Source: a virus
Virus record (IMG/VR): IMGVR_UViG_3300010885_081949
Location: 1-24,463 of that record
Direction: 5' to 3' (one strand)
DNA: 24,463 nt
Shown: in pieces, positions 5,945-24,363 of the stretch
Numbering within the stretch: position 1 is the first letter of the stretch
How the letters are laid out: each line of letters starts with the position of its first letter
Translations under genes and position numbers: made by a program
Notes under the pieces: model-generated
Seen by the model: the letters and a program-made list of their open reading frames with translations, nothing else
The model's database searches: none
Told to the model about the DNA's origin: nothing

Positions 5945-6186
5945 TGATTCCTCTTCGAGTAACTCTTGCATCCACCAAGAAAGACCAGGAACTACAAGAG
6001 AGCCTCGAAGAAGCCCGTAGGTCTATCACTCGAGCTCTCAGGGGAACGGACCCTTCTTCAAGGAAGATCGCCCGGAACCTGAAGGGTATTCTTCAGATGA
6101 TAGAAGACACGCGGCGCATGAAGCACGCCGTGGAGGAACCGGAAACCCCAAGAACGGAAAGAAGAGATGTCAAGCGAGATCGATGA
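5944..6186 (+). CDS. Small basic helical protein upstream of portal
   Basis: An 80-residue protein with ATG 5944 overlapping the previous stop (TGATG), so it is probably translationally coupled. It is strongly charged and predicted helical: a Glu/Arg-rich segment (KKDQELQESLEEARRSI) is followed by a basic helix and ends in an Arg/Lys-rich tail. Its last 20 bases overlap the portal start. No family is recognised. In T4-like phages small acidic or basic head-core proteins lie next to the portal gene; that comparison is positional only. Confidence 0.6.
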   Translation: MIPLRVTLASTKKDQELQESLEEARRSITRALRGTDPSSRKIARNLKGILQMIEDTRRMKHAVEEPETPRTERRDVKRDR

Positions 6187-9456: not shown

Positions 9457-9475
9457 GGTGTATTCCTCAGCGCAC

Positions 9476-9484
9476 ACTATACCA
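9476..9484 (-). promoter_or_regulatory. Possible extended -10 promoter for the dioxygenase gene
   Basis: The 41-base gap between the inositol-phosphate synthase stop and the dioxygenase start contains, on the minus strand, TGGTATAGT: an extended -10 TG followed by TATAGT (five of six matches to TATAAT). No convincing -35 box was seen at 17 bases. This could give the dioxygenase and SWIM genes their own transcript. Confidence is low because phage promoters may not follow the host consensus. Confidence 0.35.
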
Positions 9485-9497
9485 TGAAATGCGGACC

Positions 9498-10661
9498 CTA
9501 TCCCGGAAGGTTGTGCTTCTTCAGGGAGTCGGTCAGGAGTCTCTTCGAGAGAGCCTCGCATTCGGCGTGTGCGTCCTGAATCATCATCTGATTCGGGGGC
9601 GTCTTCTGCGTAGACGCCGAGGGTCCGCGAAGAGATCCAACGAGACCCATCTCGCGAGCGACCTGCAGGTATCGGATTGCGTCGATGACGACGCCAGCCG
9701 AATTCGGAGAGTCCTGCACTGAAAGACGGGCATCAAAGATAACGGGTGCGCCGCCGAAGCCTTCCGCCTCAATGCGAAAGTGCGCAACCTTGTTGTCGCC
9801 GTGGTAAGCGATATACGAGGAGGGTCCCGCATAGATTCCATTCTTCGGAACCGCGATACCGCGGAGATCGTTCTGGGAACGAATCACGTTCTCCTTCGAG
9901 ATCTTCTTCGAGGCAAGGCGGGACTGATCCATCATGTTGAGGAAGTCCGTGTTGCCACCGTGGTTCGTCTGCGAGTGGAACAGAACCTTCATCCCTCGGT
10001 TGAAGAAGAGCTCCTGAAGAGCCTGCGAAAGAACGCTGGCTCCAAGCTGGGAGCGCATGTCATCTCCGATCGCCGGGATGCCCGCCTCCTTCAGCTTCCC
10101 CTCCCAGAAGGGGTCCGAAACGATGAAGACCGGGATGCAGTTCACAAAGGGAACCTTCGCCTTCAGGCAGGCCTGCACATAGAAGCGAGTCGCTTCCTCC
10201 GAGCCGACCGGAAGGTAGTTCAGAAGGACGTCGATCTTGTTGTCGACGAGATCCCGCACGAGCTCCTCAATGGTAGGTTCTGGATCCTTTGTCACGCGGA
10301 ACGACTCGTCTTCCGTGTGTGTGAGCATGTGAGGGGCGACACCATCAAGGAGCTTTCCACGACGAACCTCGCAAGAACCCTCGATGACTTCATCGAGCCA
10401 AGCGCGGGATTCTTCGGTCTTCAGGATGTCCATCGCGCAGTTCGGCTTTGCCCAGAGAGCCTTCTTCAGGGGTCGGCCAACCTTACGGGTGTCGATGTCA
10501 TAGGCAAGCACAAACTTGATGTGCTTCGCCTCATACCCGCCGATATCGGCGAACGCAAGACCGTCCTTCTGATTCGTGTGGGAATAGAGGGCGACGCCCT
10601 CAACCAGCGACTTTGCGCAGTTTCCTGCACCTGCAATCGCAACTCTGATTTCGCTCTTCAT
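9498..10661 (-). CDS. ino1: Myo-inositol-1-phosphate synthase
   Basis: This 387-residue enzyme starts at ATG 10661, after GGAGAG. It converts D-glucose 6-phosphate to 1L-myo-inositol 1-phosphate in an NAD-dependent isomerisation. The N-terminal Rossmann motif is GAGNCAKSL (residues 11-19). Also present are LNYLPVGSEEATRFY (148-161), the catalytic-region segments FVNCIPVFIVSDP and GDDMRSQLGASV, NHGGNTDFLNMMDQSRLASK (233-252) and DSPNSAGVVIDAIR (317-330), all typical of the actinobacterial/archaeal short type. Length is close to that of those enzymes. A phage copy may feed an inositol-based DNA decoration given its neighbours; alternatives are supplying host inositol lipids or osmolytes. Family identification is strong; pathway destination is inference. 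Confidence 0.93.
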   Translation of the reverse strand: MKSEIRVAIAGAGNCAKSLVEGVALYSHTNQKDGLAFADIGGYEAKHIKFVLAYDIDTRKVGRPLKKALWAKPNCAMDILKTEESRAWLDEVIEGSCEVRRGKLLDGVAPHMLTHTEDESFRVTKDPEPTIEELVRDLVDNKIDVLLNYLPVGSEEATRFYVQACLKAKVPFVNCIPVFIVSDPFWEGKLKEAGIPAIGDDMRSQLGASVLSQALQELFFNRGMKVLFHSQTNHGGNTDFLNMMDQSRLASKKISKENVIRSQNDLRGIAVPKNGIYAGPSSYIAYHGDNKVAHFRIEAEGFGGAPVIFDARLSVQDSPNSAGVVIDAIRYLQVAREMGLVGSLRGPSASTQKTPPNQMMIQDAHAECEALSKRLLTDSLKKHNLPG

Positions 10662-10683
10662 CTTCTCTCCGATCTAGTAGGTT

Positions 10684-11229
10684 TTACCCTTCTGGGTTGA
10701 CTTCTGAACTCTTCAAGCGGATCTCATCGAGGATCTGCTCGGCGGTTGTTTTCCTGAGGTCATATAGGATGCCTCTTCCACCTGCGCTACAGAACTCTTC
10801 GATGTTTTTCGGGTGGTCGTCAATAAGTACGGATTCTTTGCGAGCATAGAGAGCCTTCTGCTCGCAGTTTGTGACCCCATTGAATCTTGAGATGACGCCG
10901 TTCTTGAAAAGCTCCCCGTAATGCTTCTGCAGCCATAGTTGCTTTCCTGTATGGGCTTGAATTCCCATGTCGGAGGAGTCCCTTACTCCATAAGAGGTGA
11001 GGATCTCTATCTGGTGCCCTGCATCTTTCAGGTCCTTGATGAGCTTTTTCATCTCCTCAATTCTTGAGGGCGGAAGCTCTTCGAAGAGCTTTGTCCCATA
11101 ATGGGTATAGAGGATCTCTTCTCTGAGAGACTTGTCTTCGTAGATTCTCTTCTCAGAGAACCCAGAGATCTTGCTCAGGTAGAGGTTCATGTCGGTGAGA
11201 ACCCCATCCATATCAAAGTAGACTACCAC
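10684..11229 (-). CDS. HAD-superfamily phosphatase
   Basis: This 181-residue protein uses a GTG start at 11229. The only later Met (residue 7) would cut through the active site, so GTG is needed; AAGGGG lies upstream. HAD motif I is D6-M-D8-G-V, motif II is LTS (T78-S79), a Lys for motif III is near residue 125 and motif IV is D137-D138 in LIDDHPKN. These fit the small 5'-nucleotidase/polynucleotide 3'-phosphatase-like HAD group, which removes phosphate from nucleotides or sugars. In this operon it could dephosphorylate inositol-1-phosphate, a sugar phosphate or a phosphorylated hydroxymethyl base. The gap to the downstream synthase gene is 22 bases. Superfamily assignment is firm; substrate is unknown. 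Confidence 0.83.
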   Translation of the reverse strand: MVVYFDMDGVLTDMNLYLSKISGFSEKRIYEDKSLREEILYTHYGTKLFEELPPSRIEEMKKLIKDLKDAGHQIEILTSYGVRDSSDMGIQAHTGKQLWLQKHYGELFKNGVISRFNGVTNCEQKALYARKESVLIDDHPKNIEEFCSAGGRGILYDLRKTTAEQILDEIRLKSSEVNPEG

Positions 11230-11251
11230 TTCGCGTTCCCCTTCTATCCAG

Positions 11252-11278
11252 GATATACTCGTGTTCTGGAGAATTCAA
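11252..11278 (-). promoter_or_regulatory. Possible promoter in the GT-HAD gap
   Basis: The 55-base gap holds, on the minus strand, TTGAAT (11278-11273), a 15-base spacer, then TATATC (11257-11252). Each hexamer matches the sigma-70 consensus at four of six positions, but the spacing is short. The surrounding GAGTATATC also occurs at 24431-24439 next to the terminal palindrome, so a phage-specific promoter element is possible. Confidence 0.25.
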
Positions 11279-11284
11279 CCTTGG

Positions 11285-12487
11285 TTAGCCGAACATTCCA
11301 AGAACGTCCTCTGAAGTCTCTGCGGGCTTTGAGGCCTGAACTCTCTCCCACCTCTTGATGGTTTCTTCTAGGAGACTTTCAAGACGGGCGAGCCCCGCCT
11401 TCGGATTGTAGTAATCCCAGGTCTCGTCTAGAATCTTCTGCCTCTCCTCGTCCGAGGGTGTCTCGTAGGAAAGAAGGAATTCCCTGATTCCCTCCTTCCC
11501 AAGCTCGTGTGGGATCACAACGATTCCCCCAACATGAGAAGAGGGCGCGCAAGCCTCCTTGATGGGGTGGTCCTCGATCTTGTGGGATAGAATGACCGGA
11601 ATGCCTTGGATGTTTGCCTCAACCGCGGTGAGCCCAAAGCTCTCTTGCGCAAAGCAAAGAAGAGCCTTTGAGGTTGCGATCTCCTCTTCTAGGATCTCAT
11701 CAGAAACTCCGGTCGCGTTTATCCTCTCCGAACCAAACTTCTTCACGAGCTTTTCGTAGAGTTCTTTCTGATCCGGGTGGTCTGGAGGAGGGCAGAAGAG
11801 ACGCAGGTCATCTGCTGCAAAGAGACTGATGTGATGTCTCTTTGTCGGGATTATCCTTCCGATCGTGATAAAGCCCTTCTTTGCGGGCTTCAGGATCGGC
11901 TTCTTCCAGGTGATCGCATGATGGAACCAATGAGTGAAGATGGCGTCTTCTGATAGAATGTCCTCTTCAGGAATTCCGCTTGAGATGAGAAACTTCTTGC
12001 TCTTTCTTGAGAGCTGAAGCCACTCTCTCCTTGAGGAAGCGGCGACGCAAACTGTCGCGTGCCCCTCCTTTGCCATCTTGTAAAGAGTGCCTATGTAGGA
12101 AAGGGCGGATATCCCTCCGGCCATGCCTACATGGGAGTGAACAAAGTTCACGCAAGGCCGAAGCGGCGTGAGGATTCTGTTCAAGGAAGAGTTGTCTGAG
12201 TCATGGCAGATGACCACGTCGGGTTCAACTCTTTTGATGATGTCTCGGACGATCTGATTTCTTTCTTTCGCAAAAATCGGCTTTCCAGAGTGCCTACTTG
12301 CACCAACTCGATGTGTCTTCACCTCTGGATAGGGCGGGTCTTCGCTATCGTCGTTCGTCAAGAAGTGAACCTCGTGGCCGGCATCTTTCAGAAGGATGAT
12401 CTGGTTTGCCTCGACCTTCTCTGCGCCCCCGCGAACTTTTCCTACAAGATAGGGGTTCCATCTTGCTCCGACGATGACGATCTTCAT
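11285..12487 (-). CDS. GT-B family glycosyltransferase (GT4-like)
   Basis: This 400-residue protein starts at ATG 12487, overlapping the methyltransferase stop (ATGA). The N-terminal Rossmann domain begins MKIVIVGARWNP and has the GG-containing loop typical of GT4 enzymes (KVRGGAEKVEA). The C-terminal nucleotide-sugar domain shows GRIIPTKRHH (R211, K216 as likely phosphate contacts) and the E-x7-E motif E282...E290 in QESFGLTAVEA. GT4 enzymes transfer a sugar from a nucleotide donor with retention. In this cluster the acceptor is plausibly a modified base in DNA, as for T4 glucosyltransferases, but host or virion glycans cannot be excluded. The C-terminus ends in DVLGMFG, matching a tail in the transferase-like protein encoded upstream. 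Family call is good; donor and acceptor are unknown. Confidence 0.85.
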   Translation of the reverse strand: MKIVIVGARWNPYLVGKVRGGAEKVEANQIILLKDAGHEVHFLTNDDSEDPPYPEVKTHRVGASRHSGKPIFAKERNQIVRDIIKRVEPDVVICHDSDNSSLNRILTPLRPCVNFVHSHVGMAGGISALSYIGTLYKMAKEGHATVCVAASSRREWLQLSRKSKKFLISSGIPEEDILSEDAIFTHWFHHAITWKKPILKPAKKGFITIGRIIPTKRHHISLFAADDLRLFCPPPDHPDQKELYEKLVKKFGSERINATGVSDEILEEEIATSKALLCFAQESFGLTAVEANIQGIPVILSHKIEDHPIKEACAPSSHVGGIVVIPHELGKEGIREFLLSYETPSDEERQKILDETWDYYNPKAGLARLESLLEETIKRWERVQASKPAETSEDVLGMFG

Positions 12488-13065
12488 GCTTTCACCTTTC
12501 TCCAGATGAGAACTTCTCTTCTTCTCGGCTTCCAGTCTTGGAGAACCTGCTCTACTTTTGCCCCGTAGTCATGGTGGAAGGGCTTTCTTCCATACTTGAT
12601 CGGGGCATACTGCTTCTTGAAGCTCCTTTCTTCGGAGTCTGAAACCGCATTTATTGTGCAGAGGACGTCATCCTCTTCAAGAGAGCCGATGATCTGTTCC
12701 ATCCAGGTCTCTACTTCAGAGGTCTCCCAATGCTGAAGCACGTCCTTGATGAAGAAGAACTTTGGCCCTTCAGGGATGTGCCTCTTCCACTCTTCTATCT
12801 CAAGTATGTTGCAGACGAGATTTGGTCCGCAATCCTCGACAATGTCAATGCCAAAATAGCGTTCGCTTTCGGTAAACGCCTCAGGAAGCCAGTTCTTCTT
12901 ATCGTTGCATCCAAGATCAATGAAGACGCGCTCACCCACGAGAGGCTCGAGCTTCTCTAGCAGATCTTTACAATACTTCTTTGTGCTTCCTGCGCCAGCT
13001 TTTGGGTACTTCCCTGAACGGGCCCAACGATTGGACTTCCAGATCTGCTCAAAAACCTCTTTCAT
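12484..13065 (-). CDS. Class I SAM-dependent methyltransferase
   Basis: I start this at ATG 13065 with GAGG six bases upstream, one base after the preceding stop, giving 193 residues; an in-frame start at 13116 would overlap the upstream gene. Motif I is FIDLGCNDKKNW and the acidic strand is YFGIDIVED, consistent with SAM binding, followed by FFIKDVLQHWETSEVE around motif IV. There is no DPPY/NPPY or PC-ENV signature of DNA base methyltransferases, so a small-molecule or sugar methyltransferase is more likely. It could methylate the transferred sugar/polyol. The stop overlaps the glycosyltransferase start (ATGA), which suggests coupled expression. The substrate cannot be named. Confidence 0.78.
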   Translation of the reverse strand: MKEVFEQIWKSNRWARSGKYPKAGAGSTKKYCKDLLEKLEPLVGERVFIDLGCNDKKNWLPEAFTESERYFGIDIVEDCGPNLVCNILEIEEWKRHIPEGPKFFFIKDVLQHWETSEVETWMEQIIGSLEEDDVLCTINAVSDSEERSFKKQYAPIKYGRKPFHHDYGAKVEQVLQDWKPRRREVLIWRKVKA

Positions 13066-13066
13066 G

Positions 13067-13900
13067 TTAGCCTCGTTTGTAGTCGTCTTCAAGTCTGATG
13101 ACGTCTTGAAGATCATTGGTTGAAACCTCTACGAGAGTGCAGGAACCTCCATTCGTCGCTCCGAATCGATGAACCTGCCCCGGCTTCACATGAAAGGTTT
13201 GACCTGGCCCGAGGATAATCTCTTCGGAACCGCCCTGAACCTTCAGGCTCCCAGAAAGAACGAGGACGGTTTCCTCCTTTCTTTCGTGGTATTGAAGGGA
13301 TAGACGATGCCCGCTCTCAATGTGAATGACCTTTCCAGCGTAGGGGGCGTCTGTCGGGCTCCACCAAACTTCAAACCCCCAAGGCTTCTCTTTCAGAGAT
13401 CCTTCCCACTTCTTCGAAAGATTCTCTTTTAGCAGAGAGGAAGAAGCCTGCACCTTTCCGCCGCCTACACCAAAGACGACCTCGCACCCTATTTCAGCGC
13501 AGATCTCGAACTCAGGAACCTTGCTGCTCCTGTAGTCGCCCCCTACGTCACCGCCCTCAGTTCTATCTCCACCCTTTGTGAAGAAGATGGGGCTGAGGGC
13601 TCTTATTGCCCCGCTTACGGTCGGACCCCCATCATCCCATTCGACGACGTAGTCCACTCCCGCAAGACCCGCAATGATCTCCATCCGCTCTTCACAGTTC
13701 ATGAACGGACGACCCTTCTTTCTTGAGAGCCATCCATCTCCGTTTACGATGACGGCGAGCTTGCACTGATTCTTTCTTGCAAGCTCTGCGCTCTCTTGAA
13801 TACAACGAAGATGGCCGACGTGGATCGGATCAAACCCGCCGGAGGTTGCCACAAGGCGTTCAGACTTTAGATCTTCAAGAGTTCTGACGATCTTTCCCAT
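13067..13900 (-). CDS. Nucleotidyltransferase-cupin fusion
   Basis: This 277-residue protein starts at ATG 13900 with AGGAGG upstream. Residues 15-160 form a HIGH-type nucleotidyltransferase: GGFDPIHVGHLR contains H27-V-G-H30, as in cytidylyl- and adenylyltransferases of the glycerol-phosphate or heptose-phosphate kind; the usual C-terminal ISSxxxR signature is only loosely represented by QASSSLLKEN. Residues 170-270 form a cupin like the isomerase half of mannose-6-phosphate isomerase/GDP-mannose pyrophosphorylase enzymes (EKPWGFEVWW, then GHRLSLQYHERKEE). In this operon it could activate a sugar or polyol phosphate, for example inositol-1-phosphate, to a nucleotide donor. That specificity is inference. 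This pairing of NT class and cupin is unusual to me. Confidence 0.82.
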   Translation of the reverse strand: MGKIVRTLEDLKSERLVATSGGFDPIHVGHLRCIQESAELARKNQCKLAVIVNGDGWLSRKKGRPFMNCEERMEIIAGLAGVDYVVEWDDGGPTVSGAIRALSPIFFTKGGDRTEGGDVGGDYRSSKVPEFEICAEIGCEVVFGVGGGKVQASSSLLKENLSKKWEGSLKEKPWGFEVWWSPTDAPYAGKVIHIESGHRLSLQYHERKEETVLVLSGSLKVQGGSEEIILGPGQTFHVKPGQVHRFGATNGGSCTLVEVSTNDLQDVIRLEDDYKRG

Positions 13901-13913
13901 GACTTCCTCCTGG

Positions 13914-15104
13914 TTACCCGAACATACTCATGGCGTCGATCTTTTCTTCCTTCTTGTCAAGAAGGTTCTGGACCAGCCGCTCTACTTCTCCCTCTCTTCC
14001 GGGCTGAATGAGCATCTCTCTCTTAAGATCGAGCTCCTTCGACATGTTTGGTAGATCTGGGTAGATGTTATCCATGTTGATCGGCTGCCCTGTTCCCTTG
14101 AAGAGGGGGAACAGGGCCTTTGACTCTCTATGCCATCGAATGTTCTCGAACATGTTGCTGCTGTTCACAGCATCTGCAAAAGCAGAGTAGTCAACTTCGG
14201 GCCAAGCGTTTGAGAACTCGTAGTACCTTGTGACCGCATCCCCGACGTTTTGGCCCGGATAGTCATATCCGACGTTGAGCTTCTTGAACTGACAAAGATG
14301 GGTCTCAAGCGTGAAGTAGGACAAGAACTCTCTATTCTGAACCGCTTCCTTTGCTTGGGCCATGAGATCCTTCTCAAAGGCCAGGAACCTTGTTCTGTCG
14401 GCGGCTGTTGGCTTGTACCCAGCAAACTTTGGCTGGTCCCCAACAGTCAGGTTCTCGATTCCCATAAGATAGCACATGCCATTCCACACGGAGACGTTCC
14501 CCGTGTCTTCTATGTGCATCGTGTCTGGCTCGATGGGAAGTTTCGCACACTCATAGAGGCATTGAGCTGCGATCCATGAGGTCATCCTTCCAAACTTTTC
14601 CCAAGATCGGATCTGTGCTGTTATGTTGTGGTATGACTTGTTCTGATCATCTTCGATGAACTTGTCAAACGCCGCCTCTATGTCTCCCTTTCCTTCCTTT
14701 TCGACCCACTGTATAAAGGAAGACCACATCTTCACAACGTGGCCCTTGTTGTAGCGGGTGTCCGTCGCAAACTTCTGTCGCGGCATCGTTTCGCGATTCC
14801 ACTTGTCAAGATCAGCCATGTTGATAGCCATGGGGTCTTGAAAGTGCCAGTAGAACGTCCAAGCCATAGAGCTCTGGTACGTTGTTCCAAACAGATAGCT
14901 GTACCACAGCTTCTGCTTCCTTGTCATCGGCTTTCCAGTCGGTGACTTCTTTGTGTTCATGTACGCCAGATTCCAGGCGTAGTGATCTATGTTCTTGCCC
15001 AGAAGTCGCCAGTTGAACCAGCGAAAGAAGAGTTCCTTTCGGTTTTCTGGAAGTCTCCAGTCTACCCACTTCTTGTCAGCGTTGTCGGGGTGAAGAAACT
15101 TCAT
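13914..15104 (-). CDS. Amino acid:DNA transferase-like protein (aGPT-Pplase group)
   Basis: This 396-residue protein starts at ATG 15104, overlapping the kinase stop by four bases (ATGA). It is strikingly Trp-rich. Segments such as FFRWFNWRLLGKNIDHYAWN, WYSYLFGTTYQSSMAW, WNRETMPRQKFATDTRYN and the following KGHVVKMWSSF recall phage proteins described as alpha-glutamyl/putrescinyl thymine pyrophosphorylases, later reinterpreted as amino acid:DNA transferases in thymidine hypermodification. Those enzymes act on a pyrophosphorylated 5-hydroxymethyl pyrimidine made by a DNA kinase, and a P-loop kinase is encoded immediately upstream. I assign the family from recalled motif similarity, not a search. 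The C-terminus ends DAMSMFG, resembling the glycosyltransferase tail. If the family is wrong, the gene remains an unknown conserved phage protein. Confidence 0.6.
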   Translation of the reverse strand: MKFLHPDNADKKWVDWRLPENRKELFFRWFNWRLLGKNIDHYAWNLAYMNTKKSPTGKPMTRKQKLWYSYLFGTTYQSSMAWTFYWHFQDPMAINMADLDKWNRETMPRQKFATDTRYNKGHVVKMWSSFIQWVEKEGKGDIEAAFDKFIEDDQNKSYHNITAQIRSWEKFGRMTSWIAAQCLYECAKLPIEPDTMHIEDTGNVSVWNGMCYLMGIENLTVGDQPKFAGYKPTAADRTRFLAFEKDLMAQAKEAVQNREFLSYFTLETHLCQFKKLNVGYDYPGQNVGDAVTRYYEFSNAWPEVDYSAFADAVNSSNMFENIRWHRESKALFPLFKGTGQPINMDNIYPDLPNMSKELDLKREMLIQPGREGEVERLVQNLLDKKEEKIDAMSMFG

Positions 15105-15673
15105 CGAACGCCTCGGAGGATCTCTCCGATCTGAACCGGAGTCTTGTTGTCGGTGTTCACGACAACAAGCTCTGCGTCAAGATCGGAACCCTCGTCACCG
15201 AACATGTCAAGATCGTTCTCGTTCTTGAACATCTCTGCAAAGCGTTGCGCCTTCGTCTCACGGCCCTTCATCCAGGTCTCGTTCTGGTCTGAGCCACGCT
15301 TATCACGCCGCTCCTTCAACTTTTCTGGAGAGGCCGTCAGAAGGACGCAACGAAGAGAGACCCCCGCCTCGCGAAGAGCTGTGAAGATCTTCGAGGTGGA
15401 GAATCGATCCCCGTCCCATACCGACATCTTGAACTTCTTCCCCGGTAGTACGTTCTCCTTCCAGTAGTTGAAGCAGTCCTCTGCTCCGTCATAGGGAACC
15501 GTGTCCCCACCGTCAAAGGTTCCCTTTCCGTAGTGTCCGACTAGGGCTACGTCCTTTCCAAGGGTCCACTTCGGGCTCTCTACGAGCTCGTACTCAGAAC
15601 CCAAAAGCTCTTTCAGGGCCGAAGTTTTTCCAACACCGGGGGCACCGACGACAAAGAGGGCGACGTGAGGCAT
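15101..15673 (-). CDS. P-loop kinase, likely 5-hydroxymethyl-pyrimidine DNA kinase
   Basis: I choose ATG 15673 (AAGGAG six bases upstream) over the in-frame start at 15718, giving 190 residues. Walker A is G10-APGVGK-T17. A mid-protein segment, GHYGKGTFDGGDTVPYDG (47-64), and WDGDRFSTSK (86-95) resemble phage kinases linked to base hypermodification, where 5-hydroxymethyl-dU in DNA is phosphorylated before substitution. The Arg-rich segment EKLKERRDKRGSDQN is the likely lid. Residues 154-160 read DLDMFGD, related to tails found in two downstream enzymes. It is the first gene of the minus-strand operon. A kinase is near-certain; the DNA substrate is inferred from motif resemblance and from the adjacent transferase-like gene. 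Confidence 0.72.
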   Translation of the reverse strand: MPHVALFVVGAPGVGKTSALKELLGSEYELVESPKWTLGKDVALVGHYGKGTFDGGDTVPYDGAEDCFNYWKENVLPGKKFKMSVWDGDRFSTSKIFTALREAGVSLRCVLLTASPEKLKERRDKRGSDQNETWMKGRETKAQRFAEMFKNENDLDMFGDEGSDLDAELVVVNTDNKTPVQIGEILRGVR

Positions 15674-15751
15674 GCTTTCTCCTTCGCAGAAGTTTACCCC
15701 TCTTCCTTTGCGGTACAACCCTTATGCCAGAGGGCTCGGTAGGAATTTCCA
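15674..15751. other. Divergent intergenic region
   Basis: This 78-base gap separates the first gene of the minus-strand block from the next plus-strand head gene, so it probably carries promoters in one or both directions. On the minus strand, TTGTAC, 16 bases, then TAAACT is a weak sigma-70-like match. AAGGAG (minus) and AGGA (plus) are the ribosome binding sites. No hairpin or repeat was seen. Confidence 0.4.
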
Positions 15752-18628
15752 ATGGCCGTCCCGAAAAAGTACGAGCACATCGACTTCAAGCCTCCGAAGG
15801 GCGTCGCTGCCGAGGCTGAGAAGGGCTTGAAGTACCGGGAACGCTCCGGCAAGGGCGGCTTGTCCTCGCAAGAGGCTGGAGAGTCCGGGATCGGTTCTGG
15901 GGTTCAGAGAGCGGTGAACCTGAAGAACCAGACCAACATCGCCCCGGAAACGATCCAGCAGATGCTGAACTTCTTCTCACGGAGCGAGAAGAATAAGTCG
16001 GTATCGGCAGAAAACCGCGATACTCCTTGGGAGGACGCGGGCCATGTGGCTTGGCTACTCTGGGGCGGCGATGCCGGGAAGAAGTGGGCTGAAGGAGTCA
16101 AGGATAAGATGGACAAGGCTGATGAGGAAGAGAAGGCTCAATCCAAAAAGGCTTCTGACTTGAACTCCCTCGGGTACGGGGCTCTCTCCTCCTCCTACAA
16201 GGCGGTCTCAGAAACCCTTTCTCCTGAGTTCCCGATCGACCTAGACAAGCTCACGATTGAAGAGCCCCCGCTGAATATGAGCCCCCAGACCCGAGAAGAG
16301 CTCGAGCACCTCCTCTATCTGCAGCAGGACGTTCGGCCCTATCTTCTTGGAAGAGTTCAGGCCTCTAACGACGACCCTCTGATTCATGTAAAGGAGTACT
16401 GTCTCGAGAACGGACTCCCCGTTGACTCCGAGGCTTACCATCTGAGCCAGGAGCTCAGACCTCTCATCATGAAGTTGAAGCGGTTCTACGATAGACCACG
16501 ACCCTACCAGCTCGCACCCCTGCACGGGATGCCTGATTTCTCTCCACTTGAGCTGAAGACTACAGGTACGCCCTCCTATCCGAGCGGCCACACCATGCAG
16601 GCTTTCATCGGGGCTCTCTATCTAGCGGACAAGTTCCCTGAGCATAGAGAAGCTCTTCTCCAGTCCGCTCGGAAGACATCCCTTGATAGAATGATCGCGG
16701 GCGTCCACTTTCCCTCAGACGTGATCTTCGGGGAAGTCATGGCGAAGGATATCTACGCGGGCCGTTCTGTTGGGAGATTGAAGCAGGCCTGCGTTATCGC
16801 GGCGGGAACTTTCGGTGATTCCTATTGCCTCTTCAAGAACCGCGACCGGAACTACATCCCTGAAGTCTCTCTCATTCACGAGATCCGGGGCGGGGTAGAG
16901 GTTCTCTATCTGAAGGACGACGTCACGGGCTGGACCGAGGGCATGAACGCTCTCGGTATTGGCATAGTGAACTCGGCCCTCATGGTCGCACGTGATGAGA
17001 CTGAGTATGAGCTTATCCAGAAGGGGCAGGTTCTTCCTGACGGGGAGATCATCCTTGAAGCTCTCACTCGGAGAAACGTCCTTGAGGCCGCACATGTCGT
17101 TCGGCATTACAAGGGCGGTCTTCTCGGCCATACTGTGGTCTCAGACGGGAAGCGTTCCTACTATGTAGAGCTCCCGGACGAGGACAAGGTTGCTTTTAAC
17201 GAGCTCTCCGTCGGGCGTCTCTTCACTCGAACCAATCACGGCGTGAAGTTCAAGAACACGGGCTACACGGTTGAGGACAGATATCGGGCTTCGGTTGAAC
17301 GGAGATTGAAGTCTCTCACGGTCCTTCGAGAGGTCGAATCCCCAGAAGAGCTCGCGCCCGATCTTATGCGGTCACGCGACGTTCGGGTTCACCTCCATGA
17401 AGTGATTCAGGACTCTCGCTCAAAGAAGCGGATGCGGACTACCTCTCAGATGGTCCTTGACCTTACAAACAAGGAGCTCTTTCTCTACCTGTTCCCCGAG
17501 CGGGTGAGCTGGAAGGGGTACAAGAACAAGCTCCCCGAGGGCTACAAGCCTCAGATCAGATTCCGGGTCGAGGAGTACAAAGATATCTCCCTGAATGGTG
17601 ACGGGCAGACTATCCCCATAAAGGCTTCCCCAGTGCGGGTTGCTGCCCGCTACAAAGAGAAGAAGAAGGTTCCGAAGGCCGACGGGTCGGGTGAGACCAC
17701 TATCTACGTCTATTCCGAAAGACAGCTTCAGAACCGACACCGCGAGAAGGCCGAAAGGCTTCAGAAGTTCGCGCCCAAACTAGAAGACCTGAGAGCCTCT
17801 CTGAAGAAGGACCTTGACTCTGAAGACCCTGAGACCTTTCTCACCGCGCTTGCTATCTCTCTAATCGACGCTACTTATGAGAGAGTTGGCAACGATGGGT
17901 CCGCAGAGAACGGCCACTATGGTGTGACGGGCTGGCTGAAGAAGCACGTCACAATAAAGAATGACAAGGCGATCATTCGCTACGTCGGAAAGTCCGGCGT
18001 GAAGCAAGAGAAGCGCGTTGATGATGACTCTCTTGTGAAAGCTCTGAAGCGTTGTTGCGGAGACAAAGACCCAGACGAACCTATTCTCTCACTTGAAGAT
18101 GCTCAGGTCAGTTCTAAAGAGGTGAACGCCTATCTGAAGCCCTACGGGATCACCGCCAAGGATCTGCGCGGACTTCACGCAAACCGCGAGATGCAGGAGA
18201 GACTAGAGGAGATCCGAAAGAAGGGTCCAAAGCTCCCTCGTCTTCGCAAGGAGCGCGATAAGATCTTGAAGGCAGAGTTCAAGGAGGCTCTAGAGGCCGC
18301 AGCCGAAGCGGTCGGCCATGAGCCTGCGACTCTGAGGGGACAGTATCTTGTTCCTGCACTTGAAGATTTCTACATGAAGGACGGCACCATCATTAAGAAC
18401 CTGAAGGGTGCCACAAAGACTGAGAGTCAGCGTGAGGAAGAGCACGCTGAGCATCTGATAAAGCCTTCTCCAAAGAAGAAGCCACCTCGTGAAGATCTGA
18501 AGAAGCGTCGTATGGACGAGAGCTCTTCTGACCCTGACAAGAAGCAGGATTCAAAGGATCGTTCTCAGAACTACAAGGATGCTGCTCTCCGGGTAGCCTC
18601 TCGTTGGCTCTTCAAGGAGCTCAAGTGA
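15752..18628 (+). CDS. Multidomain fusion: phage domain, PAP2 phosphatase, Ntn-hydrolase, topoisomerase IB
   Basis: A 958-residue protein starting at ATG 15752 (AGGA upstream). Residues 30-115 match a phage domain with GIGSGVQRA, MLNFFSRSEKNK and WLLWGGDAGKKWA. Residues 170-335 form a PAP2-type phosphatase: KX6RP near 241-251, PSGH at 277-280 and R313...H319...D323. Residues 347-530 look like an Ntn-hydrolase of the C45/choloylglycine kind, with candidate nucleophile C347 and FKNRDRNY and TGWTEGMNALGIGIVN downstream. Residues 545-900 are topoisomerase IB with the full apparent catalytic set R711, K747, R806, H856 and Tyr865 (GHEPATLRGQY). A basic linker and RVASRWLFKEL end the protein. The stop overlaps the next start. 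Location in the head module suggests an enzyme packaged in the virion and perhaps cleaved into parts; that is inference. Domain calls rest on motifs; the Ntn part is least certain. Confidence 0.85.
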   Translation: MAVPKKYEHIDFKPPKGVAAEAEKGLKYRERSGKGGLSSQEAGESGIGSGVQRAVNLKNQTNIAPETIQQMLNFFSRSEKNKSVSAENRDTPWEDAGHVAWLLWGGDAGKKWAEGVKDKMDKADEEEKAQSKKASDLNSLGYGALSSSYKAVSETLSPEFPIDLDKLTIEEPPLNMSPQTREELEHLLYLQQDVRPYLLGRVQASNDDPLIHVKEYCLENGLPVDSEAYHLSQELRPLIMKLKRFYDRPRPYQLAPLHGMPDFSPLELKTTGTPSYPSGHTMQAFIGALYLADKFPEHREALLQSARKTSLDRMIAGVHFPSDVIFGEVMAKDIYAGRSVGRLKQACVIAAGTFGDSYCLFKNRDRNYIPEVSLIHEIRGGVEVLYLKDDVTGWTEGMNALGIGIVNSALMVARDETEYELIQKGQVLPDGEIILEALTRRNVLEAAHVVRHYKGGLLGHTVVSDGKRSYYVELPDEDKVAFNELSVGRLFTRTNHGVKFKNTGYTVEDRYRASVERRLKSLTVLREVESPEELAPDLMRSRDVRVHLHEVIQDSRSKKRMRTTSQMVLDLTNKELFLYLFPERVSWKGYKNKLPEGYKPQIRFRVEEYKDISLNGDGQTIPIKASPVRVAARYKEKKKVPKADGSGETTIYVYSERQLQNRHREKAERLQKFAPKLEDLRASLKKDLDSEDPETFLTALAISLIDATYERVGNDGSAENGHYGVTGWLKKHVTIKNDKAIIRYVGKSGVKQEKRVDDDSLVKALKRCCGDKDPDEPILSLEDAQVSSKEVNAYLKPYGITAKDLRGLHANREMQERLEEIRKKGPKLPRLRKERDKILKAEFKEALEAAAEAVGHEPATLRGQYLVPALEDFYMKDGTIIKNLKGATKTESQREEEHAEHLIKPSPKKKPPREDLKKRRMDESSSDPDKKQDSKDRSQNYKDAALRVASRWLFKELK

Positions 18629-20787
18629 ACCGCGATCTCCAGATAAGAGTAGCGGCGCGCTGGCTCTTCTCGCAGGGGGAGAGTCCGGAAGATCGCCTGA
18701 AGGCGCGTGCGAAAAAGGAATATGACGCCTACAAGGAAGAGCACCCAAAGACGGAGCTCACCGAGCAGGACTTCCTCGAGCGACTGAAAGAAGATGGGGT
18801 CACGGGTGATTCCTCTGAAACAGACGACGCGAAAAAGAAGAGGAAAGAGAAACTTACTCAGGCAGACAAGGATAAGAAGGACGCGGCTACGAAAGAAGCC
18901 ATGACCGCCCTTGAGGGAAAGTGGAAAGAAGCCTTCGATAATCTTGATCTCACAGATGATAACAAGAAGAAGTTCTCAGATTCCTTGAAGAACTTCGGTC
19001 CGGAGGAAAGAAAGACCTTCATGGGGTCTTTCGATTCCTCTTTGAAGAGCCTGAAGAGCGGGTCTGCCTCATATGACCCGGACAAGACCGCTTCCCTTAT
19101 GAAGAGCCTTAAGAAAGGTGTTCAGGGGGCAGACCCCTCTCGTCTCGGCTCTCTTGCCGCGGAGGCAGTCTTCGCGGATCGCATCGCACTCAACCCGGAG
19201 ATGCTCTCTGCGGGTGATCCGGTCTCGGGACCTGACGATGAAGGCTCCGGTTCTGAGGCTTCTGATATTCAGAAGGCATCAAAGAGATCCTCACTTGCTC
19301 TCGCACGCTTTGAGAAAGCCTCAAAGGAGGAGCTGGAAGAGTTCTCGAAGAGACTGGACTCTATGATAGACGAGGCTCCCGCGGATTCTCCTCGTCAGAA
19401 GGAGCTTATGGCTACGCGCCACGGGCTGAATCTCGCACAAGCACTGAAGGGCGATTCTGATGAGCCTCCCGAAGGTGTTGCGCCTCTTGAGTTTCTCTGC
19501 CTGAAGGCTCTAAAGAAGAAGGGAACCAGTATCCTTCCTCTAGCAGAGCTCTCCTACAGATCCTCGTCGCGCGACGAGAGCTCTTCGGCTTCTATGGCGC
19601 AGGAGATCGGTTCTGCCATCGAGAACATGGATATGTCGGAAGTTATGCGAATTCTCCCGACAGAATATCAGTCTCTTGGAGCTTCGGCCCTAGAAACCGC
19701 GATCGCAAACGCCACTAATCTTGATTCCCAGGGCAATGAGATCTCAGGCGATAACCGGAATAAGAAGCGGCTTCTTGAAGCAAAGGCGCAGCTTGAGAAA
19801 GAGATGAAACAGTCTATCGTTGACCTTATCACTCAAGAAGCCTCGAAAAAGGTAAAAGGCGAGCCCACTCCTATGCCTGAGGCACCCACCTATAAGGTGA
19901 AAGGCAACAAGGGCGGCTCGATTTCTGACTGGTTTGACGATCTCAGAGAGTCTCTATTCGGAAAGTCCGCAGCAATAGCCTCCCTATACGAGAAGCATAC
20001 AGGTGAGGCTTGCTCTATGCAAGCCTATCGCCCCTTTTCCTCAAGGAGACCACTGATGTCAAAGCTCACTCGTCAAGGGGCGCGTAATCTGACCGCCGCG
20101 CTTGATCGTATCGCTCAGACCCTTCAGAGCCGTCACGACCTTCTGGGCGTTGACAAGAAGATCGCGACGGACTTCGCCTATCGCTGCGATCTTCTGTCGG
20201 ATGCGATCGAGCGCACCGCCTCTGCAAACTTCCCCCTCTCCCGCGAGGCTGCGGCGAAGGGCGTGGACGACGAGGGTCTGTCCGTAGACCACGGCGAGAG
20301 CGGCTTTGACGCTAACCTCATCGGTGATGCAGTTCCGGGCCCCCTTGAGATCATCACTCCTCCCAATGAGCCCTGGATGGACGCGCACTTCACCCAGGAG
20401 AACTTCCACGAGCTCGGTGAGCTTCAGGAAGCGGGCGAGCTCGGCCCCGTGAAGCTCGCTTCTATCCTCCACAACCTGAGCGCGGCGACCGCTCTTCTCG
20501 CGAAGTCTGCGAAGAAGTCTCAGGAGAAGGCTCAGGAGTCCCAGCAGGCTCCGAAGGCTCAGCAGAAGGCGAAGGCTCAGCAGAAGGCTCAGGAAGCCCA
20601 GGAGCAGGAGCAGGAGGCTCAGGAGCAGGAGCAGGAGCAGGAAGCTCAGCAGGCTCCGAAGGCCCAGCAGAAGGCGAAGGCCCAGCAGTCCCAGAAGGGG
20701 CAGCAGGCTCCGAAGGCTCAGCAGTCCCAGAAGGCCAAGAAGGCTTTCGATCAGTCTAACGACTGGGGCTTCAACCTCACCGAGTGA
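18625..20787 (+). CDS. Probable internal head/core protein with Gln/Ala-rich C-terminus
   Basis: I choose GTG 18625, overlapping the previous stop (GTGA) with AAGGAG six bases upstream, giving 720 residues. The N-terminus, LQIRVAARWLFSQG, nearly repeats the C-terminal peptide of the preceding protein. Residues 25-480 are charged, Lys/Glu/Ser-rich and probably helical or disordered. Residues 478-720 could also be made separately from ATG 20056. The last 85 residues are a low-complexity array of Ala, Gln, Lys and Glu units (QQAPKAQQKAKAQQ, EAQEQEQE). No enzyme motif is visible. Its place just upstream of the protease and scaffold-like genes suggests a head core or internal virion protein. This is inference from context and composition. 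Confidence 0.72.
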   Translation: MNRDLQIRVAARWLFSQGESPEDRLKARAKKEYDAYKEEHPKTELTEQDFLERLKEDGVTGDSSETDDAKKKRKEKLTQADKDKKDAATKEAMTALEGKWKEAFDNLDLTDDNKKKFSDSLKNFGPEERKTFMGSFDSSLKSLKSGSASYDPDKTASLMKSLKKGVQGADPSRLGSLAAEAVFADRIALNPEMLSAGDPVSGPDDEGSGSEASDIQKASKRSSLALARFEKASKEELEEFSKRLDSMIDEAPADSPRQKELMATRHGLNLAQALKGDSDEPPEGVAPLEFLCLKALKKKGTSILPLAELSYRSSSRDESSSASMAQEIGSAIENMDMSEVMRILPTEYQSLGASALETAIANATNLDSQGNEISGDNRNKKRLLEAKAQLEKEMKQSIVDLITQEASKKVKGEPTPMPEAPTYKVKGNKGGSISDWFDDLRESLFGKSAAIASLYEKHTGEACSMQAYRPFSSRRPLMSKLTRQGARNLTAALDRIAQTLQSRHDLLGVDKKIATDFAYRCDLLSDAIERTASANFPLSREAAAKGVDDEGLSVDHGESGFDANLIGDAVPGPLEIITPPNEPWMDAHFTQENFHELGELQEAGELGPVKLASILHNLSAATALLAKSAKKSQEKAQESQQAPKAQQKAKAQQKAQEAQEQEQEAQEQEQEQEAQQAPKAQQKAKAQQSQKGQQAPKAQQSQKAKKAFDQSNDWGFNLTE
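20043..20048 (+). promoter_or_regulatory. Internal ribosome binding site AAGGAG
   Basis: AAGGAG lies seven bases before an in-frame ATG at 20056 within the 720-residue gene. It matches the SD consensus as well as any genuine start in the window, and in the long frame it encodes part of Ser-Arg-Arg using the rarer agg and aga codons. This supports internal initiation. Confidence 0.55.
20056..20787 (+). CDS. Nested product (243 residues) of the 720-residue gene
   Basis: An internal ATG with a strong SD could produce the C-terminal 243 residues as a separate protein, MSKLTRQGARNLTAALDRIA onwards. From here on, Arg codons are cgt or cgc in the first 60 residues, whereas the stretch before uses aga and agg, so codon use changes at the internal start toward that of abundant proteins. 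The product has a helical N-terminal part, an acidic middle (LSVDHGESGFDANLIGDAVP) and a Gln/Ala/Lys/Glu-rich tail. It resembles the scaffold-like protein encoded at 22753 in tail composition. Either both products are made or the frame is a fusion of two formerly separate genes. No family recognised. Confidence 0.5.
   Translation: MSKLTRQGARNLTAALDRIAQTLQSRHDLLGVDKKIATDFAYRCDLLSDAIERTASANFPLSREAAAKGVDDEGLSVDHGESGFDANLIGDAVPGPLEIITPPNEPWMDAHFTQENFHELGELQEAGELGPVKLASILHNLSAATALLAKSAKKSQEKAQESQQAPKAQQKAKAQQKAQEAQEQEQEAQEQEQEQEAQQAPKAQQKAKAQQSQKGQQAPKAQQSQKAKKAFDQSNDWGFNLTE
20517..20745 (+). repeat. Low-complexity Gln/Ala/Lys/Glu coding repeats
   Basis: This stretch is built from imperfect units such as cagcaggctccgaaggctc and caggagcaggagcaggag. 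It encodes QQAPKAQQ and EQEQEAQ blocks. Very similar units recur in the gene at 22753-24363, so the two genes share repeat DNA that could recombine or expand and contract. Confidence 0.8.
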
Positions 20788-21335
20788 GATTCCACTTGAA
20801 GCGCGTCGCACAAAACTATGTCAACTACCAGCAGAGAGCCACCGAGTTCTCTGTTGGTGACGTTGTTGTCCCTTATGGTTACTACGAGAGCCATTCGGGA
20901 AGAGTCGTCGCGCTCTATCCTGGGATCGGCATGGCCGACGTTGAGTTCGCCTCGGGCTCGAAAAGATACCCCGTAGAAGAACTTCAACGCATAAACCCGG
21001 AGACGGGGAGCGCGATCCCTCCTAGAACAAACTCAGTTCCTGGAGGGCTTCCCACCACTACCGTCTCCGGGGGGCCGTTCCCTCAAAAGGAGGCAGCTGT
21101 TCGAGTTGCCTCCTCCTACGTTCGGAACGCCCTCTATTGGTACGGGCCGGACAGAAAGTATCGCCTCACGCGAGTAGAATCCAACGAGGGTTCCTACTAT
21201 TGCCCGAAGTGCGATAAGATCGAGATGAAGAAGACAGTTTACAAGAGAGTTCAGGGGAAGAGCGATAAGCTCCTCGGCTGTCCTTCTTGTCTCTTCCTCA
21301 TCAAAGAGTTCGACATCATCCGGGTCGAGGAGTAA
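20784..21335 (+). CDS. Zinc-ribbon protein with SH3-like N-terminal part
   Basis: This 183-residue protein starts at GTG 20784, overlapping the previous stop (GTGA); no good SD is visible, so translation probably relies on coupling. Residues 20-70 (FSVGDVVVPYGYYESHSG and a following MADVEF strand) resemble a small SH3/KOW-like barrel. Residues 135-180 contain CPKC and CPSC about 30 residues apart, a zinc-ribbon pattern. Between them is KEAAVRVASSYVRNAL, a version of the Arg-Val-Ala-Ser peptide seen elsewhere in this window. The function is unknown; nucleic-acid binding or a head-assembly role are possibilities. The next gene starts 3 bases after its stop. Confidence 0.72.
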   Translation: MRFHLKRVAQNYVNYQQRATEFSVGDVVVPYGYYESHSGRVVALYPGIGMADVEFASGSKRYPVEELQRINPETGSAIPPRTNSVPGGLPTTTVSGGPFPQKEAAVRVASSYVRNALYWYGPDRKYRLTRVESNEGSYYCPKCDKIEMKKTVYKRVQGKSDKLLGCPSCLFLIKEFDIIRVEE

Positions 21336-21338: not shown

Positions 21339-22751
21339 GTGGCTTTTCTGAAGTATGCCCGCGCTCACGTCATGCACCCTCGTACTACGGGGGCGCACTG
21401 GCAGGGCGTACGCAAGGCGGCTTCTTCAGCTCCCGCAAAGAACCTAGTTGCGCAGGCTTCAGAGATCCTCGGTGAGAACTTCTCACCTGACAGGTTTCTC
21501 CTTACGCACTGCACGATTGTGGCCTCGGTTGACACCGATCCTGTCCCGAACGTAAAGCTCGGCTCTGAGAAGGTCGGCTCCAAGGTGATCACCCGTAAGT
21601 GGGCTGACTTCTATATCAAGCCTGACTGCGCTCAGTTCGTGAACAACAACGGTGACTCCTGGTCGCGTGATGTTCTCTTGAAGTCTTATCGCACCTTTAT
21701 CGGGGCGCATAACTTCCTAGAGCATGTTCAGATCGAGGAGCAGTCAAAGGGCCGAATCATCGACGCCGTGGCGCGCGACATCGGTGATTCCCTCTACATT
21801 GACATCCTAGTCGCTACCGATAGAAAGCACGCCCAGCTCGTTTCTGACATTGAGGCCGGAAGACTCGGCACTCTATCAATGGGTTGTACTTGCGAGTTCA
21901 CTCTCTGTTCGCAGTGCGGAAACGTAGCCGTAGATGAGACTGATCTCTGCGATCACATCAAGTATGCCAAACTGAACACCTTCTTTGATGACGGTGGGAA
22001 GAAGAGAATCATCGCCGAGCTCTGCGGGCATACCTCGCATGGAGATACGGGCGGGGTTCGGTTCATTGAGGCTTCCTGGGTAGCGGTTCCGGCATTTGCG
22101 GGAGCGGTGATGCGCAACATCATCGATCCGGCAGCGGTTTCCGCTGAGCTTGGAAAGCAAGCCAACAAGATTCTTTCTTCGCCGCCTCCAGAATGGGGAA
22201 CGGGTGTTCAGAGAGCGGCTTCCCTAGAAAACCGCCTTGGCGGTTTCGGCGAAGAAGAGCCAGCGGCTGAGGCTCCGGCTGAACCCGCACCTCCTCCGCT
22301 TCCCTTCCAGGATATCGAGGATCAACTCTACGAGACCCTTAAGAACAAGGTTCGAGAGAGACTCGAGAAAGATATCTCTTCGGGCAACGTCGAGAAGGCT
22401 CTTGGGACTCCGACTTCTCCTAATGATTCTATAATCCGGGAAGCCCGTCGCCATCATCAGGGAGCCCTCACTGCTCTTCAGAAGGTAGCATCCAATGATG
22501 CCTCTCTAGTAGAGGGTGTCATGGAACTAGACCGTCAGTTTGGCCTAGTTGCTTCTAGTGATGTTTATCGGACTGCGCTCCTCGCGGGCGACCCAGCTCG
22601 GTATCTTTCTCCAGATGAATATCTGCGGGCTTGTCATAAACTTGCACGCAGGGTTCTGTCCCCCGCCGAGGTTCGGGTTGTAGTCCGAGTCGGCAAACTG
22701 CTTTCCCGAAAGGGAAGCACTCTCAACCACCGCAATCGTGAGGAGTACTAA
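21339..22751 (+). CDS. Prohead (capsid maturation) protease-like protein
   Basis: This 470-residue protein starts at GTG 21339 with GAGGAG upstream. Prohead proteases cleave scaffold and capsid proteins during maturation. The likely catalytic His lies in GAHNFLEHVQ (H124 or H129), followed by a SKGRIIDAVARD strand, and the Ser is S180 in TLSMGCTCEF. This order and spacing fit the T4 gp21/herpesvirus-assemblin-like S-type proteases of large phages. Right after the Ser is a Cys-rich insert (CTCEFTLCSQCG, then C and H in LCDHIKYA) that could bind zinc. The C-terminal 200 residues are Pro/Ala/Glu-rich then helical, perhaps a core-assembly region. It lies just upstream of the scaffold-like gene, as in T4. 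Assignment is by motif and order. Confidence 0.75.
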   Translation: MAFLKYARAHVMHPRTTGAHWQGVRKAASSAPAKNLVAQASEILGENFSPDRFLLTHCTIVASVDTDPVPNVKLGSEKVGSKVITRKWADFYIKPDCAQFVNNNGDSWSRDVLLKSYRTFIGAHNFLEHVQIEEQSKGRIIDAVARDIGDSLYIDILVATDRKHAQLVSDIEAGRLGTLSMGCTCEFTLCSQCGNVAVDETDLCDHIKYAKLNTFFDDGGKKRIIAELCGHTSHGDTGGVRFIEASWVAVPAFAGAVMRNIIDPAAVSAELGKQANKILSSPPPEWGTGVQRAASLENRLGGFGEEEPAAEAPAEPAPPPLPFQDIEDQLYETLKNKVRERLEKDISSGNVEKALGTPTSPNDSIIREARRHHQGALTALQKVASNDASLVEGVMELDRQFGLVASSDVYRTALLAGDPARYLSPDEYLRACHKLARRVLSPAEVRVVVRVGKLLSRKGSTLNHRNREEY

Positions 22752-22752
22752 C

Positions 22753-24363
22753 ATGCGTGAACGGCTCACTTGGCGGGCGGGGGCGCGTCGTGCCTCTGCT
22801 CATCCTGCCTACCCCGATGAGGGCGCGGCTTCTCCTGCTTACCAGCCGGATCCTGAGGCTGACGCCTACGAGAATGGCGACCCGTCTTCTTGGGCCGAGG
22901 ATCCGCACCCCGGTCCTTACACCCAGTCGGCGCACCCCGCGACCCCCGATGAGGGTCCGGCTTCCCCGGCCTACAAGGCTGCGGCTCTGAACGTCGCTCT
23001 CGAGCGCAAGGCCGCGAAGTGCATCCGCCTCGCTTCCGCGCTGCTCGGCCCGACCGCTTCTCAGCACGAGGTCGAGGATCAGGCTCTCGCGTTCATGGAT
23101 CTCTCTGATCGCGCTCTCCACGCTTCCCTCACCCGCATGGCGGGTGAGGAGCAGGAGCAGGAGCAGGAAGCCCAGGAGCAGAAGGCTCAGAAGGCTCAGA
23201 AGGGCCAGAAGGCCCAGGAGTCTCAGAAGGCTCAGCAGAAGGCGAAGGCCGCTTACTTCCGCCGTCTTGCAGAGCAGGCTGAGAAGGAGTCTGACGACGA
23301 GGAAGAGGACGAGGAAGAGGAGGAGGTAGAGGAGAAGGAAGAGAAGGTTGAGGAGAAGAAGGCTTCTCTCAACTCTCGTCTTGCCCGCATCGAGCGTCTT
23401 CTTGCTCGCACCGCGCAGCAGGTGATGCCCGAGGCCCAGCAGGCTCCCAAGGCTCAGCAGTCTCAGCACGCTCAGGCCGAGGCTCTTCTCGCTCAGCTCG
23501 TCAATGAGGAGCAGGAGCAGGAAGCTCAGCAGCTTCTTTCTCAGCTCGTCGCTGAGGAGGCTCAGCAGGCTCCGGTTGCGCAGCAGTCCCAGCAGGCTCA
23601 GCAGCAGGCTGTGGCCCAGATGCAGTCTCTCCTCGCGCAGATGGCTCCTTCTGCCCAGCAGCAGGCTCTGGCCCAGCAGGTCCAGATGATGGCTCAGATG
23701 GTGGCGCAGCAGGCTCAGCAGGCTCCTGTCGCTCAGCAGCCCGCGATGGCTCAGCAGCAGCAGGCCCAGCAGCAGGCAGTTGCGCAGCAGATGCTCGCGC
23801 AGATGCTCGCTGAGGAAGGCATGGGCGAGGCTCAGGGCGCACCCCTTGAGGCTCAGTACATGGACGCTTCCGAGGCGGCTATGTTCGGCGTTGAGTCCCA
23901 GCAGGCTCCCGTCGCGCAGCAGCAGTCTGTGGCTCAGCAGGCTCAGCAGCAGATGATGGCGCAGCTGCTCGCCCAGCAGGCGCAGCAGCAGCAGGCGCAG
24001 CAGCTCATGCTCGGCGAGGAGTCTATGGACGTCGCTCCGGGCATGATGGACTCTTCCGCCGTTGAGGACCCGATGGGCCTCATGGGCGTTGAGGGTTCTG
24101 AGGACATGATCCTCGCCCAGCTCTTCGGGATGAAGTCTGCGAAGAAGGGTCAGGAGCAGGAGCAGGAGGCTCAGGAGCAGGAGGCTCAGGAGCAGGAGCA
24201 GGAGGCTCAGGGCAAGGAAGGCAAGAAGGCTTCCCTCCGCCCGCAGCCGAAGAAGGCTTCCGTCGGCGCGACCCGTCTCGGCGGCGTGACGAAGGAGGCC
24301 GCTGAGATCAACGAGCTCTCCTCTCTGTGGGAGTCCGCTCCGGACGTGGCCAAGTATTTCTGA
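22753..24363 (+). CDS. Gln/Ala-rich scaffold-like or internal head protein
   Basis: I choose ATG 22753 (GAGGAG seven bases upstream), giving 536 residues. The N-terminal 75 residues contain an imperfect duplication, SAHPAYPDEGAASPAYQ and SAHPATPDEGPASPAYK. Residues 130-170 and 470-510 are EQEQEAQ/KAQKAQK arrays, about 180-200 is a Glu/Asp run, and 220-430 is almost wholly Gln, Ala, Met and Leu (QQAPVAQQ, MLAQMLAEEG). Such sequences form coiled coils or disordered assemblies. Position after the protease and immediately before a terminator fits a scaffold or core protein, with the major capsid gene expected downstream outside the window. Codon use (cgt/cgc for Arg, gct/ctc) suggests high expression. 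No sequence family recognised. Confidence 0.7.
   Translation: MRERLTWRAGARRASAHPAYPDEGAASPAYQPDPEADAYENGDPSSWAEDPHPGPYTQSAHPATPDEGPASPAYKAAALNVALERKAAKCIRLASALLGPTASQHEVEDQALAFMDLSDRALHASLTRMAGEEQEQEQEAQEQKAQKAQKGQKAQESQKAQQKAKAAYFRRLAEQAEKESDDEEEDEEEEEVEEKEEKVEEKKASLNSRLARIERLLARTAQQVMPEAQQAPKAQQSQHAQAEALLAQLVNEEQEQEAQQLLSQLVAEEAQQAPVAQQSQQAQQQAVAQMQSLLAQMAPSAQQQALAQQVQMMAQMVAQQAQQAPVAQQPAMAQQQQAQQQAVAQQMLAQMLAEEGMGEAQGAPLEAQYMDASEAAMFGVESQQAPVAQQQSVAQQAQQQMMAQLLAQQAQQQQAQQLMLGEESMDVAPGMMDSSAVEDPMGLMGVEGSEDMILAQLFGMKSAKKGQEQEQEAQEQEAQEQEQEAQGKEGKKASLRPQPKKASVGATRLGGVTKEAAEINELSSLWESAPDVAKYF
23143..24214 (+). repeat. Long Gln/Ala/Glu low-complexity repeat region
   Basis: Interrupted arrays of cag-cag, gct-cag and gag-cag codons run through most of this span, with Glu/Asp-rich and unique segments between them. 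The unit caggagcaggagcagga occurs near 23151, 23511 and 24151, and in the other repeat region near 20608. Confidence 0.75.

Follow-up and report, generated by a model that had tools for sequence, protein, structure and literature searches.

The window, that is, the whole 24,463-nucleotide stretch analyzed here, is a 24-kb IMG/VR fragment that encodes a phage head module, as the earlier note had proposed and as PHROGs profiles for TerL, the portal and the head maturation protease bear out. The terminase large subunit TerL (positions 3159–5114, + strand; phrog_2, E 1.1e-20) and the portal protein (6167–7873, +; phrog_16240, E 7.2e-29) are encoded upstream of a long fusion gene, and the head maturation protease (21339–22751, +; phrog_18299, E 4.2e-14) and an acidic, Q-rich scaffold-like protein (22738–24363, +; recognized by conserved synteny ahead of an MCP-like gene) are encoded downstream of it. 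The fusion gene occupies positions 15752–18628 on the + strand, starts with ATG, stops with TGA and encodes 958 amino acids without an internal stop. Its stop codon overlaps the GTG start (GTGA) of the next gene (18625–20787, +), whose product begins with MNRDLQIRVAARWLF; in a related locus, L003, this product is fused to the topoisomerase, and the homologs of both genes form a single 1713-aa protein. Next in order is the gene for a 183-aa head-module protein, conserved in synteny and with no function assigned (20784–21335, +).

The − strand between the portal and fusion genes (8317–15718) contains a block resembling a DNA hypermodification cluster, with a Tet_JBP oxygenase (Pfam, 3.9e-21), a myo-inositol-1-phosphate synthase (NCBIfam, 3.7e-89), an ADDT amino acid:DNA transferase (5.6e-22), a HAD protein, a glycosyltransferase-like protein, an HldE-like nucleotidyltransferase with a PMI-like cupin and a P-loop kinase-like protein; the DNA could conceivably carry a modification linked to inositol. 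Upstream of TerL, a 368-aa protein (838–1944) opens with a Dps/ferritin-like domain (phrog_3636, E 2.6e-10).

The fusion protein joins at least two biochemically unrelated domains in a single polypeptide encoded near virion late genes. The four domains that had been read in the 958-residue frame are confirmed by Pfam, PHROGs and fold comparison of models: profile and structure searches run for each domain recover the TopoIB, PAP2 and AAT-type Ntn folds, and the N-terminal domain is recovered by profile and identity only. PHROGs place residues 6–131 in phrog_2859 and residues 648–824 in phrog_23460. The N-terminal phage domain (residues 6–131, 15767–16144, +; phrog_2859, E 2.6e-10) shows 54% identity to gp019 of Synechococcus phage S-CBS4 and 58% to its counterpart in contig L180, and stands alone in other phages; no fold is assigned to it from the full-length model. 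That model, which was built on an alignment without the stand-alone Ntn proteins, whose joint alignment misplaced the second half, has a mean pLDDT of 62 and is reliable for TopoIB only and moderately for PAP2.

By its modelled fold and intact catalytic residues, the C-terminal part of the fusion (residues 636–890, 17657–18421, +) is a type IB topoisomerase, with activity predicted. Pfam Topoisom_I matches residues 660–860 (E 6.7e-25), and most of residues 681–880 exceed pLDDT 85 in the full-length model. The topoisomerase model superimposes on the D. radiodurans TopIB-DNA complex (PDB code 3m4a) with a Z of 23.0 over 216 aligned residues at 2.4 Å, and on variola TopIB (PDB code 2h7f) with a Z of 22.9. 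The Arg-Lys-Arg-His/Asn-Tyr set of type IB enzymes is present as R711, K747, R806, H856 and Y865, exactly the residues named before, and is invariant in 24 of 24 aligned homologs. The reading of the tyrosine enzyme as an integrase was rejected, as full-length TopIB chains score Z 18–23 and tyrosine recombinases below 13. The domain is preceded by the junction motif RVAARY (residues 629–634, 17636–17653, +) and followed by a low-complexity tail (KPSPKKKPPREDL...; 18422–18589, +), conserved in the alignment with L003 and L005, and by a C-terminal motif helix, RVASRWLF (residues 947–954, 18590–18613, +).

The PAP2, or class A acid-phosphatase-like, domain comprises residues 189–339 (16316–16768, +) and is recognized by both Pfam PAP2 (residues 242–330, E 1.9e-13, 50.7 bits against a cut-off of 27.2) and fold, with a Z of 8.7 and 30% identity to the acid phosphatase 7f18. 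Its motifs KRFYDRPRP (K-x6-RP), PSGH and R-x5-H-x3-D are present and conserved with L003. Two other phage contigs encode PAP2 proteins that stand alone.

The section that follows (residues 347–600, 16790–17551, +) is, according to its model, an Ntn hydrolase of the AAT/penicillin-acylase fold, with the predicted nucleophile C347 and a predicted cleavage at A346|C347. Folded separately with 26 relatives, it reaches a pLDDT of 86 and resembles the AAT-fold enzymes CV2077 (Z 19.1), NAAA (18.7) and isopenicillin-N acyltransferase (17.9). The aligned range begins at C347, which matches the nucleophile position of these three mature enzymes, and the cysteine is invariant in the aligned relatives. 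Chryseobacterium phage MA9V-1 encodes a stand-alone homolog of 274 aa, whose alignment likewise begins at the equivalent Cys. The domain of the fusion alone has no Pfam hit, and 11 of 29 members of its family match AAT (E up to 0.01). A sequence profile of the family found no match among PDB sequences; the AAT fold is recovered by fold comparison only. The earlier suggestion of lipid or amide substrates for the phosphatase and hydrolase is reasonable as a guess, with lipid-amide hydrolases (NAAA) or N-acyl amidases, and nonspecific acid phosphatases, among the nearest folds.

Eighty stand-alone or otherwise fused phage AAT-like Ntn homologs (L047–L126) carry the catalytic Cys behind a short or a long leader, and the short propeptides of the stand-alone homologs hint at a predicted cleavage that would leave the Cys N-terminal. 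The Cys is directly preceded by [LI]-x-E in 40 of 47 distinct cases, even where it lies 100–360 residues into the protein; [LI]xE has a background frequency of 1.2% per position in the contigs concerned, and as the rows are related, no formal probability is attached to this count. Cleavage by T4 gp21 occurs after L/I-X-E (PMC9026906), and a T4-type prohead protease (Peptidase_S77) is encoded in 7 of 10 records having such proteins. The sequences thus suggest that, in phages with a T4-type protease, head maturation may free the Ntn nucleophile, with self-cleavage by the Ntn enzyme as the alternative. The fusion protein has no L/I-x-E protease site before C347; it carries LKQA|C, and its kin carry GRTA|C, TREA|C and NKEA|C. 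As the residue before C347 is Ala, the [LI]xE rule is not directly transferable to it. In L103, L115, L116, L121 and L124 the Ntn domain lies within longer phage proteins of about 950–1340 aa, several of which end in APINQI.

An IMG/VR scan with the topoisomerase alignment yields 39 loci with 48–61% identity, on contigs of up to 485 kb. At least one homolog of TerL, portal, protease or MCP is located near the topoisomerase in 26 of 38 loci (L009–L046), and none of these markers is seen nearby in the other 12. In three that were checked, L019, L027 and L037, which form a separate branch, the gene is near a conserved DHH phosphoesterase (phrog_4771), without recognizable head genes beside it. 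Of ten records inspected over their full length, G006 has two TopoIB copies and the other nine have a single one. The IMG/VR record L012 matches LR745208 over the topoisomerase region. In LR745208 (L005), two TnpB-like ORFs (2069–3370, +, and 5538–6821, −; CSKCG/ECGL zinc-finger motifs by eye) flank TerL. In the tree of topoisomerase domains, the head-module rows form one clade (100/100) apart from PaBG, Motura, HRDY3 and PhiXhv-12.

The domains joined to this topoisomerase vary widely. The partner is a PolyA_pol nucleotidyltransferase with PAP2 in L003, HAD_SAK in L012, L013 and L025, 2H/LigT in L009 and L010, a short 2H remnant that Pfam does not recognize in L045, HAD_SAK with 2H in L046, 2H/LigT with InPase in L028, LPD1 in L021 and L027, and GNAT in L039. 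The order in L034 is Ntn, topoisomerase, InPase, and that in L036 is DUF5661, InPase and AstE-like, then topoisomerase, then RNA ligase. In six loci (L016, L018, L022, L026, L033 and L041) a stand-alone topoisomerase of 345–356 aa directly follows TerL and precedes the portal. In L180 the cassettes are adjoining separate ORFs: PolyA_pol with the S-CBS4 domain and HAD_SAK; Ntn, beginning MHTFTHRVASRHLASMTREA|C; and topoisomerase with GGACT, in which an HExxH-like zincin section can be read from the sequence. This single contig came from a scan of a genome collection, inside an Actinomycetota MAG; it is probably a binned phage piece, and no host is therefore inferred from it. Partners differ even on supported sister rows (L028/L034, 100/99). 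The topoisomerase is kept as the constant part, and the other enzymes are exchanged among relatives.

The domain joins and protein termini are marked by a short motif, R-V-A-[AS]-[RK]-[YWF], a version of which is shared by the end of the fusion protein (LRVASRWLFKELK) and the beginning of its downstream neighbor. The pattern R[VI]A[ASHT][RKH][WYFH] has 39 matches among the 368 ORFs taken from the window and 20 loci, against 0.33 in shuffled proteins (maximum 2 in 100 shuffles); a first, stricter pattern misses LR745208. Twelve of the 39 are the topoisomerase N-junction, and being homologous they are not independent. Of the other 27 matches, 17 are no more than 25 aa away from a terminus, where 16.5% would be expected by length, and most of the remainder fall at the join of the topoisomerase tail and the following domain. 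Genome-wide, the motif is enriched, yet it also occurs outside the head module; because it is not confined there, it is not called a proven packaging signal. A targeting or processing role of RVA[AS]R[YWF] may nevertheless be envisaged.

This organization resembles that of the polyvalent proteins that Iyer et al. (2017, PMC5512222) described in phages, where several unrelated enzyme domains share a single polypeptide whose gene is close to virion genes; 2H, InPase, GNAT, LPD1 and zincin domains, all listed in that paper, occur in relatives of the fusion. Known polyvalent domains (2H, InPase, LPD, zincin) are absent from the fusion protein itself and present in relatives that share its topoisomerase. 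Unlike in the polyvalent proteins, the constant element here is TopoIB; in PMC5512222 the word topoisomerase appears in a reference title only, and PAP2 and Ntn are not mentioned. The statement that no such combination was known holds for the exact set of domains: the 958-aa query is not covered to 80% by any phage record, no second PAP2–Ntn–topoisomerase protein turned up in IMG/VR, and the exact four-domain protein was found here only. It does not hold for the principle, since polyvalent proteins are known and relatives fuse the same topoisomerase to many other domains.

The phage-specific TopoIB of PaBG, Motura, Lu11 and phiRSL1 (PMC7824862) belongs to the same enzyme superfamily, and the PaBG gene is also near capsid genes, but no multi-enzyme fusion is described there and these enzymes are deeply separated in the tree. 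The TopoIB gene of PaBG (L175) has a SprT/Spartan-like gene on one side and the capsid genes on the other. Proteases of the SprT type repair DNA-protein crosslinks of the sort that topoisomerases can leave behind. The Deinococcus and poxvirus type IB topoisomerases share the fold (Z about 23) and the catalytic pentad, while being single-function enzymes. The poxvirus TopIB is present in the virion. Vaccinia H6R is a late gene (PMC11980589). The Ntn section shares the fold and the N-terminal Cys position with AAT, NAAA and penicillin V acylase; in the fusion, however, the Cys is internal, after PAP2, and LKQA precedes it instead of a short propeptide. The T4 internal proteins and Alt, with their capsid targeting sequence and gp21 processing, are similar in carrying short end sequences on varied cargo, and the L/I-x-E site before Cys is a T4-like feature of the stand-alone Ntn relatives; the motif here differs in being RVA[AS]R[YWF], located at either end or at joins, and is a putative targeting signal.

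On balance, the fusion protein probably represents a topoisomerase-centered branch of the polyvalent proteins, which would be packaged in the head and injected; this reading is favored because of the gene order, the partner domains and the end motifs. TopoIB and its tail would form the constant part, and the N-terminal slot would accept interchangeable enzyme cassettes, here the phage domain, PAP2 and the Ntn hydrolase. Judging from gene order, the protein would be expressed late within the portal-to-protease block and recruited into the prohead, possibly via the short RVA[AS]R[YWF] stretches found where domains join and where proteins end. By analogy with the Ntn family, a cut before C347, autocatalytic or by the head protease, would expose the nucleophile and split PAP2 from Ntn-topoisomerase. 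On entry, the topoisomerase may nick and rejoin the phage DNA, removing torsion, and the phosphatase and amidohydrolase may have host small molecules, lipids or defence signals as their substrates. A more far-reaching version, which we regard as possible yet doubtful, is a cassette system of huge phages in which enzymes (RNA repair, phosphatase, Ntn amidase, pyrophosphatase, peptidase) are joined to or split from a conserved TopoIB platform at will, each cassette would be bounded by RVA[AS]R[YWF] as a head-targeting tag, and the Ntn enzymes would stay inactive until head maturation frees the Cys.

Several observations count against the main reading: the L019/L027/L037 branch near the DHH phosphoesterase, the occurrence of the motif outside the head module, and the Ala before C347. 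In PaBG, a distant TopoIB phage, the topoisomerase is missing from 14 stained virion bands, among which its neighbors gp80, gp81 and gp83 are listed; this is weak evidence against packaging, since stained bands would miss minor proteins. The main rival holds that the topoisomerase relaxes torsion of the concatemer in the cell during packaging by the terminase and is not injected, the fused domains being co-expressed late-acting enzymes. The stand-alone topoisomerases between TerL and the portal fit this, but the partners found in the other lineage (2H, HAD_SAK, RNA ligase, InPase, GNAT) play no part in packaging and correspond to the set of injected polyvalent proteins, and the terminal and junction motif is common to neighboring proteins; we consider this rival rather unlikely. 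It is improbable that the enzyme is an ordinary large-phage topoisomerase for replication or transcription, placed among late genes by accident and fused to its neighbors by chance. Phage-specific TopoIB is indeed known in Motura, NCTB, phiRSL1, Lu11 and PaBG (PMC7824862), in Motura within a mixed gene region; against this stand the repeated fusions with many unrelated enzymes, the conserved place by portal, protease and scaffold genes, and the deep split from the Motura/PaBG type in the tree. An assembly chimera, which the short metagenomic fragment might invite, is very improbable indeed: the flanking gene order agrees with independent contigs, PAP2–topoisomerase and Ntn–topoisomerase fusions recur in other contigs, and the N-domain, Ntn and topoisomerase cassettes occur together in L180.

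Polyvalent proteins are already known as a kind. The literature searched, a scope outside which most subscription journals fall, yielded no account of phage head modules in which TopoIB repeatedly serves as the platform for fused enzymes. To our knowledge, no earlier phage case of a virion-carried topoisomerase has been described; if the present one is virion-borne, it would be the first, parallel to the poxvirus enzyme. It would then also suggest that phages with very large genomes have to relieve torsion during entry or packaging. The swapped enzymes and the common short motif offer a route to further head cargo and a testable targeting tag, and the L/I-x-E|Cys pattern of the stand-alone Ntn relatives leads to the testable idea that capsid maturation may switch enzymes on.
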